The notes under the pieces were generated by a model. It did no database searches. It was not told the DNA's origin and saw nothing but the letters and a program-made list of their open reading frames with translations. 64,000 bases of DNA from Alphaproteobacteria bacterium. Its GTDB lineage: Bacteria > Pseudomonadota > Alphaproteobacteria > Bin95. The stretch covers positions 1-64,000 of the forward strand of contig JAJEIH010000066.1 in assembly GCA_022827685.1 (NCBI GenBank), written 5' to 3'. Every line of letters starts with the position of its first letter. Positions within the stretch are counted from its first letter, which is position 1. Below, one piece after another: positions 1-3,742 of this stretch. The position numbers and the translations under genes are program-made.

Positions 1-29
1 ACCGCGCATGGGAAACCCTCATGCGCGGT
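1..29. repeat. Perfect inverted repeat (10-bp arms, 9-nt loop)
   Basis: The arm ACCGCGCATG at 1-10 is matched exactly by its reverse complement at 20-29, with a 9-nt spacer. The structure may continue past the window edge. It sits just downstream of the minus-strand pilus genes. It lacks a T-tract on either side within the window, so a terminator is possible but unproven. Confidence 0.6.
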
Positions 30-129
30 GTCGGTACCCCGGCCAACGACAACAACTGCGCCGACTACGCCGACAGGCACGCCGCATGAACCCGATCAGC
101 CCAGCGATCCCGCCATCGCCATGTCAGAT
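30..129. other. Short stretch after the pilus genes, no gene called
   Basis: Downstream of the 110-residue minus-strand gene I see no complete reading frame with a convincing ribosome-binding site. A minus-strand ATG at position 22, inside the hairpin, is open to the window edge. It could begin the next pilus gene (a secretion ATPase in R64-type order), but only seven codons are visible. Confidence 0.3.
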
Positions 130-462
130 TCACACCCGCACGCCCTTGAGCTCGTCGCTGGTCGCGTAGACCGCGAGCACCCCGTCGCAGTAGCGCGCCG
201 TGAGCCCGCGCTCCGTCCAGGACGAGAGCCACCAGGACCCGGACGGAGGATCGACCAGGCCGGACCACTCATCCTCCCAGAGGTTGGCCGCGTCCGTCAC
301 GCGGATCCGTTCCTGGACGCTTCGCCAGGCCGTCTGGATGACGACCGCATGCGCCAGGGCTTCCTGCTGCCGCGTCCGCTCCGGATCGCCCGTCTGCGCG
401 CCGGCGCCGGCCGCGATCCCGGCGAAGCCCAACGCCACCACGGCCGTAATCGAGTGCTTCAT
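130..462 (-). CDS. Small exported protein in the pilP position of a type IVB pilus operon
   Basis: This encodes 110 residues. The first 22 form a signal peptide: Lys near the start, a hydrophobic run TAVVALGFAGIAAGAGA, and a likely cleavage site after AGA. The mature part is short, Trp-rich (WEDEWSG, GSWWLSSW) and carries one Cys. Its ATG overlaps the pilO stop as ATGA (459-462), so translation is coupled. In R64-like operons the gene after pilO is pilP, a periplasmic assembly protein. Position and export signal fit, but I do not recognise a PilP motif and the protein is short for that family. Function is therefore inferred from context only. A longer frame runs through the region upstream but is a shadow of pilO. 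Confidence 0.6.
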   Translation of the reverse strand: MKHSITAVVALGFAGIAAGAGAQTGDPERTRQQEALAHAVVIQTAWRSVQERIRVTDAANLWEDEWSGLVDPPSGSWWLSSWTERGLTARYCDGVLAVYATSDELKGVRV

Positions 463-1748
463 CCTGCCTTCCCTTGCTCGCTGCGCATCGCAGAGCCAGC
501 CTGCGAACCCGTCAGCGCATGGAACTCGCTCTCCCGGACATGAAACGCCTGCGTCCGCCTGACGGCGAATACCCAGTCGCGCTCCGGGCTCCAGGTAACC
601 GACGCCACTTCGAGCCCCTCGATCGCCGTCAGCATGGCGACGGCCTCCCGGAGCGGCCGGCCGGTCTGGAGCTCGACCTCGACCTCCGCGCCCCAATCCC
701 TGTATTCGATCTCGAAACCGCGGAGCGCCAGCGCCATGTCCAGACGACGGCGAAACTCGGCCGGCTCCGCCCAGGTCGCGTCCTCCGCGCGGTAGCGCTC
801 GACCACCACCGGCAGCGCCATGAACGCCGCAGACGTTCCCTTGTCGTCCATGACCGCATCGGGCCAGCGCTTCAGCATGTCCTGGGCGAGCGGCACATAG
901 ACCCGGGGATCGAGCCCTTCCCGCAGAACCCAGGAGACCTCCAGAACAGGTCGCCCGGCCAGGCCCCCGGGAGCCATTTTCGACACCCCCTGCGCGAATC
1001 TCGGATGGCACGCCACCGCCAGCCGGTCGAACCCCGACATGCTGACGCGGCGTGCGTCCATGGCCGCCTGGCAGTGCCGCAGGAAGTCCCCCGTGCGGAC
1101 CACCGCCTCGACCAGCGGCTCTTCCCTGGTCTCCTTCCGGCCCAGGCCGGCCATCCGCAGCAGGTCCTCGCCCGCGAGCCACCACAGCAGCCCTCCGGCA
1201 GCCCCCAGCATCAGCACGAGCACGAGCACGAACGACCCGACAGACATCCCCGCCGCCGGCGCCCTCACCATTTCCGGCGCGTTGGCCGCGCCTTCGGCAA
1301 TCGTTTCTACGCCGAGGACCTCCGCATCCGGAGCGAACTCCACGAGCCCCGGCGTGACCGCCAGGTGCATCCGGTCGCCCTGCAGGTTGCCCAGCGCCGC
1401 GAACGCTTCCTCGCCCGACGCGAAGACCGAGTCCCCGCCCGGCAGAATCAGGCCGGCCGCGCCGCGAAGCACCGCGACCCGCCGCGGCCCTTCTCCCTTC
1501 CCGTCCTCCTCTATGAAGGCCGCCCAGCTTTCCTCGCTCCCCAATCCCGCTGTCAGCACAGCGGCAAGAGGCCGGCTTCCCTCCGGATTGTCGACGCCGT
1601 TCACGAAGCCGGTCTGCGCCCCGACATCGACCGTCCAGGGCCTGTACCGCTCCTTCGCGATCCGGCCCGCAGCACGGCCCTTGACGAGCTCGCGCTGCCA
1701 GTCGAGACCGGCAGCGAACCGCTGACCCCCGATGATGAGGACGCTCAT
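459..1748 (-). CDS. pilO: Type IVB pilus assembly protein PilO (PilO2-like)
   Basis: This encodes 429 residues. The N-terminal part is cytoplasmic, a single hydrophobic segment lies at about residues 169-193 (rich in V, L, A and W), and the C-terminal part of about 235 residues would be periplasmic. This architecture, together with the preceding secretin, matches the R64 thin-pilus PilO inner-membrane family, which scaffolds the pilus machine between inner membrane and secretin. The ATG overlaps the pilN stop as ATGA (1745-1748), and its own stop overlaps the next start, so the three genes form one translationally coupled operon. The family assignment rests on size, topology and context rather than a catalytic motif. 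Confidence 0.75.
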   Translation of the reverse strand: MSVLIIGGQRFAAGLDWQRELVKGRAAGRIAKERYRPWTVDVGAQTGFVNGVDNPEGSRPLAAVLTAGLGSEESWAAFIEEDGKGEGPRRVAVLRGAAGLILPGGDSVFASGEEAFAALGNLQGDRMHLAVTPGLVEFAPDAEVLGVETIAEGAANAPEMVRAPAAGMSVGSFVLVLVLMLGAAGGLLWWLAGEDLLRMAGLGRKETREEPLVEAVVRTGDFLRHCQAAMDARRVSMSGFDRLAVACHPRFAQGVSKMAPGGLAGRPVLEVSWVLREGLDPRVYVPLAQDMLKRWPDAVMDDKGTSAAFMALPVVVERYRAEDATWAEPAEFRRRLDMALALRGFEIEYRDWGAEVEVELQTGRPLREAVAMLTAIEGLEVASVTWSPERDWVFAVRRTQAFHVRESEFHALTGSQAGSAMRSEQGKAG

Positions 1749-3298
1749 CCCCCGGCCTCCCGTACCGGAACGGCGCGAGCCTCGGAGACCTCCCGTCCGA
1801 CAGTCCCGCCGCTTGCCGGCGAGTTGTTGTTCGCCGCCGTGGCGAGTCCGCCGCCGCCGACCCCGAGCCTTCGCTCCGAGATGCCGAGCGGCTCGCCTAT
1901 GTTCGCGGTCACCAGCAAGGCCAGCTCGATCCGCCCGATGCTCGTGTCGCCTCCACCGTCCGGAAACGGAATATCCGGATCGAACGTCCCGTCCCTCGAC
2001 CCCGAAGAGGTCCGGTCCCTGAAGCCCGTCAGGAGCAGGGTGTCGCCCCTTGCGAACCGTTGCGTGACCGTGGTGGCGCGCCGACCGCCGGCGGGAAGCT
2101 GGATCGCGTTGCCGACCGTGCCGAAGCTGGTGAACTCCGGCCGGTCCTGGATCGTCGCGGTGATCCGCGCCAGAACCTCATTCGGGCCGACGATCTGCGC
2201 CACGAAGCTGAGACCGAAACCGGAAGATACCGTCCCCGGAGTAAGCGCGACGGTGCGCACGCCGTCGTCGACCGTCGTGGTCACCTCCTTGAGATAGGCC
2301 TGCTCGAACAGGTCGTAGAACACCCCCGGCACCCTGCTGACCGCCGATACGTCCGCGGAAAGCAGCCGCGACGCCCTCCCGACCGAACGCAGCGCGCTTA
2401 CCGTCGCCCGAAGCGTCGACCCGCCAGCGGTCGTCGGCTTCACGATCGAGATCGAGCCGTTCTCGACCCCAATCTGGAAGTTCGACCCGAACGCCTCCGG
2501 CAGGAGCCCTGACAGCCCCACCTCATAGTCGGACCCCTTGTCGAACCGCACCGAATAGAGATGCACGCTCAACGTCACCTCCCGCAGGAGATGCTCGTTG
2601 ATGTGCGCCAGATACTGCCGGACCCGCTCTATCGCCCGCGGCAGGCCGCTCACCGTCACCGTTCCCGACGTCGCCGAGATCGAAACCGCCCCTTCCGACC
2701 CGGCCGCCGTCTTGGCCTGCGTCCCGACCTCCGCCCAGGGGTCGTAGACCATCTCCGACGTGATCGTGTGACTGGACGAGCCGCTCGTCTCGTCTCCGCC
2801 GCTGCCCTGCGTCGCCGTCGTTACGTTGTAGGTCTGCTTGCCCTGCAGCGCATGGACGTCGAACACAACCGTCTCGGACCGCACAACCTCCACGGTCCCG
2901 GCATCGGCGTCGTAGTGCCAGCGATAACCGGCAGCCTGTGTCCAGGCGTCCAGCAGCTGATCCAGCGGGCCGGCCCAAACACCCGCCTCGCCCGCCATCT
3001 CGTCCGCCCAGGACGAGAGCCAGCCGTTCGCGTCGCCGCCGGCGGCCGCTTCACCCCCCGAAACGGAGACATCCTCATCCGCCGCCAACCGGGCCGAGCC
3101 TGAAATCCGGACGGAAATGCCGGCCGCGTCCTCAATCCGACGGGCCAGCACCTCGTCACTCGGAACCACGCTTTCCTGCGCTATCCCCCGATCGCCCGGC
3201 AGGCCGTCCCTCGCTCCGTCCACAAGGGTCACGACCACGCCCGAGTCAGAACGCAGTTCTTCAGGCAGCAGCGAACCCGGCGCCACTACCTCCTTCAA
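1745..3298 (-). CDS. pilN: Type IVB pilus outer-membrane secretin (PilN/BfpB family), 5' end damaged
   Basis: From the first usable in-frame start (TTG at 3298) the frame encodes 517 residues. It has the features of PilN/BfpB secretins: an N-terminal periplasmic part with a short beta-rich domain, then a C-terminal secretin barrel region (about residues 230-490) with GDTLLLTGFRDR and a closing IGRIELALLVTANI strand. It would form the outer-membrane ring through which a type IVB pilus passes. The TTG is unlikely to be the true start: the same frame runs further upstream and encodes a lipoprotein signal (see next entry). No ATG, GTG or TTG exists in that extension, so the gene may be frameshifted or truncated. 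Confidence 0.75.
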   Translation of the reverse strand: MKEVVAPGSLLPEELRSDSGVVVTLVDGARDGLPGDRGIAQESVVPSDEVLARRIEDAAGISVRISGSARLAADEDVSVSGGEAAAGGDANGWLSSWADEMAGEAGVWAGPLDQLLDAWTQAAGYRWHYDADAGTVEVVRSETVVFDVHALQGKQTYNVTTATQGSGGDETSGSSSHTITSEMVYDPWAEVGTQAKTAAGSEGAVSISATSGTVTVSGLPRAIERVRQYLAHINEHLLREVTLSVHLYSVRFDKGSDYEVGLSGLLPEAFGSNFQIGVENGSISIVKPTTAGGSTLRATVSALRSVGRASRLLSADVSAVSRVPGVFYDLFEQAYLKEVTTTVDDGVRTVALTPGTVSSGFGLSFVAQIVGPNEVLARITATIQDRPEFTSFGTVGNAIQLPAGGRRATTVTQRFARGDTLLLTGFRDRTSSGSRDGTFDPDIPFPDGGGDTSIGRIELALLVTANIGEPLGISERRLGVGGGGLATAANNNSPASGGTVGREVSEARAVPVREAGG

Positions 3299-3566
3299 CC
3301 CCAGATAGGGATGCCCGGACCGTATGAGAGAGCGAAAACCCGGCCGCTCCGGATTGATCGCCCCTACTCTCCCGAGCTTCTCCTCGACAGCGGCCGCCTC
3401 CCGCTCAACTGCTTTCTGGTCGATCCAGCCGCAGCCCGGCAGGGCGATCCCCGCGGCCAGCAGCAGAACCCCGACACCCCTGCTGGAACTTGATGCCGAA
3501 CCGTTCGATCCGCCCGTAAGTCGCTGGCTTGCACCGGTTGACAGGACCCCGAATCCCTTTCAGCAT
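3299..3566 (-). pseudogene. pilN: Upstream continuation of pilN with lipobox, apparently frameshifted
   Basis: Reading upstream in the pilN frame gives VGVLLLAAGIALPGCGWID, a textbook lipoprotein signal with lipobox LPGC, as expected for PilN secretins. The frame is open to a TGA at about 3561-3563 but has no start codon. In the next frame, an ATG at 3566 opens into residues ending GRIERFGIKFQQG, a basic stretch that would join directly to VGVLLLAAG if one base were removed from the C4 run at 3477-3480 (plus strand). I infer either a one-base insertion that disrupts the gene, or a sequencing error. Confidence 0.55.
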
Positions 3567-3575
3567 GATGCTGAA
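3559..3575. repeat. Perfect 17-bp palindrome at the pilus/chromosome junction
   Basis: TTCAGCAT-G-ATGCTGAA has two perfect 8-bp arms around one central base. It lies exactly where the pilN frame ends and six bases before the recognisable part of the SnoaL-like gene fragment starts on the other strand. It could be a recombination core or an operator for the pilus genes. The sequence alone does not decide. Confidence 0.6.
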
Positions 3576-3580
3576 TGTAG

Positions 3581-3742
3581 CGTTCGGTCGACCCCGTCTC
3601 ATGGTCCTGCGTGCTCACCACGCCGGACCGGTCGAGCGCCTGGCGCGGCCTCGACCTGCTGCATGTCGAGGGCGGCAGGATCGTCGCCAAGCACACCTAC
3701 GCCAAGACGGCGCGTCCGCTCTTCGAGGCCCGCGCCGCCTGA
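3581..3742 (+). pseudogene. C-terminal remnant of a SnoaL/NTF2-like protein
   Basis: This frame gives 53 residues, including WRGLDLLHVEGGRIVAKHTY and ending in PLFEARAA before TGA at 3740-3742. The pattern W-x-G-x-D-x-x-x-V-x-x-G-x-I-x-x-K-x-T-Y is the last two strands of small SnoaL-like/ketosteroid-isomerase-fold proteins, which are normally about 130 residues. The first 60% is missing. Stop codons lie immediately upstream (TAG at 3578-3580) and the sequence there switches to the pilus operon. The fragment is convergent with the NHL gene, whose stop is 8 bp away. Confidence 0.6.

Follow-up and report, generated by a model that had tools for sequence, protein, structure and literature searches.

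A SnoaL-like gene split by a probable I-type integrative conjugative element with an R64-like thin-pilus operon in an alphaproteobacterium

Among the closest described counterparts of the locus reported here is the R64/IncI1 system, which it resembles in the order of its pilus genes (pilN–pilO–...–pilQ–pilR–pilin) and in a set of TraI, TraJ, DotI/TraM-like, DotH/TraN-like, DotA/TraY and NikA-like proteins. In contrast to R64/IncI1, the present element is integrated into a chromosome with a serine recombinase of its own, its PilN falls under the curated family cut-off, a large additional protein (X) is encoded between pilO and pilP, and a relaxase of the NikB type (PF03432) is absent from the genus. 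The pilus loci of Bosea pANAM02 and Azospirillum p5 show a similar order (TcpQ–PilN–PilO2–ATPase–TadC-like), but are plasmid-borne and lack X. Elements of the PAPI-1/pKLC102 type carry a tyrosine integrase and insert at tRNA genes, whereas here the recombinase is of the serine type and the target is a protein-coding gene. These Pseudomonas elements are likewise integrated and conjugative and possess a type IVb pilus of the R64 kind (PMC5297154), but mate through an MPF_G channel, in contrast to the MPF_I channel predicted here. Integration by a large serine recombinase (TndX) is shared with Tn5397-like elements in the account given in PMC3158045, although these are Gram-positive and their transfer genes are unrelated to those described below. 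In a 2011 survey, MPF_I systems on chromosomes were rare, being essentially confined to Dot/Icm in Legionella and Coxiella, and several such systems on one chromosome were not found (PMC3158045); newer reports may exist.

The window, i.e. the whole stretch of DNA that was analysed, comprises bases 1–64000 of contig C36 of a metagenome-assembled genome of 167 contigs (G000); window and contig start at the same base, so the record holds no further sequence to the left. The element is spread over three or more contigs of this genome, which would include C36, C56 and C165. Comparisons were made within a set of eight genomes (G000–G007), consisting of this genome and seven congeners. One congener (G006) is the bin95 genome from the sponge Aplysina aerophoba (PMC5649159); sponge symbiosis is therefore represented at least once in the alphaproteobacterial genus to which the genome under study belongs.

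Positions 1–3604 of the window belong to an integrated element and form its right-hand end; the insertion has split a SnoaL-like gene. The preliminary description had proposed such an edge with a beheaded chromosomal gene beyond it, and both junctions have now been located. Positions 3602–3742 encode only the C-terminal ~47 residues of a SnoaL-like protein (chromosomal remainder at 3607–3742, plus strand), while the front half of the gene lies on C165, where it is joined to the other end of the element at GATGATTTCCTGGTC/GTGCTGCCGGGTCGACCG; the junction in the window is GGTCGACCCCGTCTCATGGTC/CTGCGTG. The complete gene (~137 residues) is found in six congeners (G001, G002, G003, G004, G005 and G007). 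The empty site reads GATTTCCTGGTCCTGCGTG. Contig C170 of G004 matches the window with 94% identity over 2 kb and holds the SnoaL front half, its tail and the NHL gene together on one contig; C363 of G007 and C132 of G002 also match, so that relatives with an intact SnoaL-like gene beside the same NHL gene exist, as had been expected. The two circumstances named as counting against an integrated element, a pairing of this NHL gene with the pilus operon in many distant genomes and a lack of mobile genes within 60 kb to the left, were not encountered: the NHL gene occurs in congeners without the pilus operon, and mobile genes are present. The edge had, however, been placed at the 17 bp palindrome TTCAGCATGATGCTGAA (3557–3573, no strand), and this is refuted, as the palindrome lies inside the element end, ~30 bp short of the junction, and is missing from the related element ends L026 and L031.

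The element half of the attachment site (attR; 3571–3604, no strand) consists of the arm TGAATGTAGCGTTCGGTCGACCCCGTCTCATG, which has an inverted partner at the C165 end. The recombination core TGGTC (3602–3606, no strand), with its central dinucleotide GT at 3604–3605, is the sole sequence common to the empty site, both junctions and the deduced attP, and a target duplication is absent. When the two ends of the element are joined, an attP of ...CGGTCGACCCCGTCTCATGGTCGTGCTGCCGGGTCGACCG... results, in which an unbroken 11 bp inverted repeat is centred on the GT of the core; such a repeat was reached in none of 20,000 shuffles. Arms placed symmetrically about a dinucleotide, a core of only a few bases and the lack of a duplication are characteristic of large serine recombinases. 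An enzyme of this class, with Resolvase, Recombinase and zinc-ribbon domains, is encoded on the C165 arm and in a PDB search resembled TP901-1 integrase as well as a structurally characterized recombinase from a conjugative transposon. A close homologue is found on the left arm in G002, where both junctions (C553 and C527) are as in the genome under study, with the same bases around the core.

The gene nearest to this end, pilN (1745–3430 or further upstream, minus strand), encodes a type IVb pilus secretin lipoprotein that is matched by TIGR02520, the model for PilN secretins of type IVB (E = 6.5e-39); its score of 133.8 bits is far under the curated cut-off of 287.65, which marks it as a divergent member of the PilN family. 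Identity reaches 69% with the congener copies and is 25–28% with PilN of pANAM02 and p5. Upstream of the lipobox (region 3431–3562, minus strand), ATG, GTG and TTG are all absent and the frame is open to ~3562, with a TGA in the palindrome; pilN may start at a rare start codon or through a frameshift. One frame over from pilN, an ATG begins an open reading frame of 64–65 codons, and pilN of L024 likewise lacks a standard start before its lipobox. A direct family search with pilO (459–1748, minus strand) gave no match, but its profile aligned over 356 columns with the annotated PilO2 of the Bosea and Azospirillum plasmids (hhalign probability 97.5%, E = 8e-12). The identity of pilO is 41–51% to most congener copies and 29% to that of G005.

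Assignment of the short third gene (130–465) as pilP was considered and rejected: it is the front of a secreted protein of 540–670 residues, X (first ~108 codons at 138–462, minus strand), cut by an insertion sequence. Its product resembles the starts of the 540–670-residue proteins encoded after pilO in congeners and ends where those continue. Positions 1–137 (plus strand) form the end of an insertion sequence present in multiple copies; they match the first bases of contig C64 of the same genome with 100% identity and contain the last 28 codons of an open reading frame (...AWETLMRGVGTPANDNNCADYADRHAA and stop). The rest of X (QRDHREVQVAPARYGNGRTGL...) is encoded in frame on C56 from ~141, after another insertion-sequence end. 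The junctions are AAGGGCGTGC/GGGTGTGAATCTGAC on the window side and CTTGCACCC/GGGCGTGCAGCGCG on the C56 side, and the two ends show a terminal inverted repeat of ~25 bp and an 8 bp duplication, GGGCGTGC, indicating that the insertion sequence lies within X and that the operon resumes on C56. Since X is broken, the window copy of the element may be impaired. X is built from a signal-like N-terminus, a variable linker and a C-terminal LDLDGDG...DINGDG segment; in G002 this segment matches phrog_3677 (labelled protease; E = 5e-33). In the copies at L024 (6545–8554), L025 and L029, the linker has SCPAGQVGTPPNCTTPTS repeats and the calcium-type C-terminal segment is conserved, and in some copies X is followed by genes such as those for a GNAT or a radical-SAM protein. 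On C64 (L006, 1–1635) the same insertion-sequence end lies directly upstream of a gene resembling that of a SIR2-type defence protein.

The pilus part of C56 encodes a PilP-like protein, a T2SSE ATPase, a PilR-like protein (a weak match only; ComGB, E = 3e-4) and two pilin-like paralogues with the common C-terminal end GSCxGC; pilN, pilO, ATPase, inner-membrane PilR and pilin are therefore found in the order of an R64-type thin-pilus operon. The transfer part comprises an R64-type TraI (PF16932, E = 4.6e-56), a DotB/TraJ ATPase, DotI and DotH (which we take to correspond to TraM and TraN), an IHF-like protein, TrbI/DotG, DotA/TraY and a coupling protein (T4CP), together with a large ATPase that is probably DotO/TraU, its VirB4 match being weak. 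Domain matches for the T2SSE ATPase, DotB/TraJ, DotI, DotH, TrbI and DotA/TraY are above cut-off, and the conjugation genes are undecayed open frames. Assignment to MPF_I calls for at least four genes specific to that class (PMC3158045), and C56 carries TraI, TraJ/DotB, DotI, DotH and DotA/TraY; as judged from its predicted proteins, it is an I-type (MPF_I) conjugation system. In G005 (C120, 36843–39716; L059) genes for a ribonucleotide reductase and SSB lie downstream of the coupling protein. The R64-type operon of the preliminary description thus holds, with PilN recognized through TIGR02520, the PilO2-like pilO through hhalign and the remainder on C56. Its prediction that the remaining genes would lie to the left is correct for pilP to the pilins, although within the window the operon breaks at position 1 in the insertion sequence. 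Mobile genes were likewise expected there; the serine recombinase (C165), the tra/dot genes and the coupling protein (C56) were recovered, but not a linked relaxase.

PF03432, the relaxase family expected for R64, gave no match in any of the eight genomes, and a relaxase motif search on the element contigs returned nothing credible. TrwC (MOBF) relaxases are matched 3 to 23 times per genome across G000–G007 (ten in the genome under study, 23 in G003), all on other contigs, and none is physically linked to the window's copy of the element. This TrwC load is unusual for a sponge-symbiont genus. Contig C5 of the genome under study, which matches C436 of G002 with 94% identity over 9.4 kb, carries SSB-like and toprim genes related to genes in these elements, a kinship that is suggestive only as a pointer to the relaxase. 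The C165 arm contributes ParA, ParB, a toprim protein and NikA-like accessory genes.

All seven congeners contain pilN, with one to three pilN loci per genome, while outside the genus six genomes of the family gave no match and seven of 46 other genomes of the class did. Among the pilN-side ends elsewhere (the congeners and the genome's own C2), nine join unrelated flanks and the tenth, on C553 of G002, occupies the same site as in the window; the ends are conserved over ~70 bp, and the flanks beyond are unlike except in this pair. Targets include comM and genes resembling those for TauD, MaoC, an amidohydrolase, an aldo-keto reductase and an integrase. In G006 (L026, 4000–6008) a related element end breaks comM exactly at the Walker A motif; comM is an insertion site of other islands too. 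A second end (type A) on C2 (L070, 11764–11973) lies within a phage-type integrase gene and is followed by a different insertion sequence, found at nine other places in the contigs. This end was considered as the other end of the present element and rejected, the true other junction being on C165; a viral origin was also rejected, a search of viral contigs having given no relative. The G002 bin holds filled junctions (C553, C527) and an empty site (C132) side by side, a pattern suggestive of either a recent move of the element or variation among strains; as C132 and the flank on C527 are not fully alike, two strains may be mixed in the bin.

Of what is looked for in an integrative conjugative element, integration at a defined chromosomal site that is empty in relatives, a dedicated site-specific recombinase with a matching att structure, and a type IV secretion channel with a coupling protein were found here; for the relaxase, the matches obtained (TrwC) are unlinked. 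On this basis the window very probably contains one end of an integrative conjugative element of the MPF_I class that carries thin-pilus genes and entered the chromosome through its own serine recombinase. The unlinked relaxase, the scatter over several contigs, the interruption of X and the absence of a standard pilN start before the lipobox count against this reading. C56, C165 and the window would belong to one element, the first being linked to the window by the insertion-sequence duplication and the reading frame and the second by the split SnoaL-like gene. The recombinase would join attP to GATTTCCTGGTCCTGCG within the SnoaL-like gene, splitting it. The operon pilN, pilO, X, pilP, pilQ, pilR and pilins would read inward from the window end, with the MPF_I (Dot/Icm-like) mating channel and coupling protein further inward and the partition, toprim and NikA-like genes in the other arm. 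If the element works as R64 does, donor and recipient would be kept in contact by the thin pilus, and the MPF_I channel would carry the DNA across; a TrwC-type relaxase would presumably nick the DNA, and the element would be predicted to excise and transfer. More tentatively, the copies may represent a lineage of MPF_I elements with serine recombinases, varied targets, a terminal thin-pilus operon and MOBF rather than NikB relaxases that has multiplied in this sponge-symbiont genus, which we regard as possible rather than probable.

The most serious competing explanation is a dead remnant, i.e. an old integration, damaged by insertion sequences and devoid of a relaxase, that neither excises nor transfers. 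The insertion in X, the unlinked relaxase and the C2 end followed by another high-copy insertion sequence would fit such decay, but the conjugation frames on C56 are intact, the G002 bin shows filled and empty sites, and pilN and pilO are conserved among copies (41–69% identity), so that we consider a remnant rather unlikely. It is distinctly less likely that integration proceeded by another mechanism, such as a tyrosine integrase or transposase encoded on a part of the element missing from the assembly; although several target genes and two differing types of end occur across the genus, the short core, the lack of a target duplication and the GT-centred inverted repeat point to a serine recombinase, and one is encoded on each left arm that was recovered (G000 and G002).

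The fragmentation of the genome, with contigs ending in repeats at this very locus, also raises the question of whether the pilus contig ends were misjoined to the SnoaL flank during assembly or binning. Such a chimera is very improbable, since G002 independently has both junctions, base for base around the core, and both flanks are adjacent on a single contig of G004. Least credible of all is an old, non-mobile chromosomal type IVb pilus locus: its presence in every congener would agree with this, but the flanks differ at nearly every copy, some genomes hold two or three of them, and elsewhere the target gene is unbroken, the empty sites refuting a fixed locus.

Compared with the earlier picture of rare chromosomal MPF_I systems, I-type conjugative elements are here present throughout a genus, inserted in different genes of the chromosome and in some genomes two or three times. 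With junctions available on both sides and a deduced attP, the integration step of the proposed element is directly testable, and these same features suggest that sponge symbionts actively exchange genes by conjugation. The C165 recombinase with its att sites might also serve as an integration tool.
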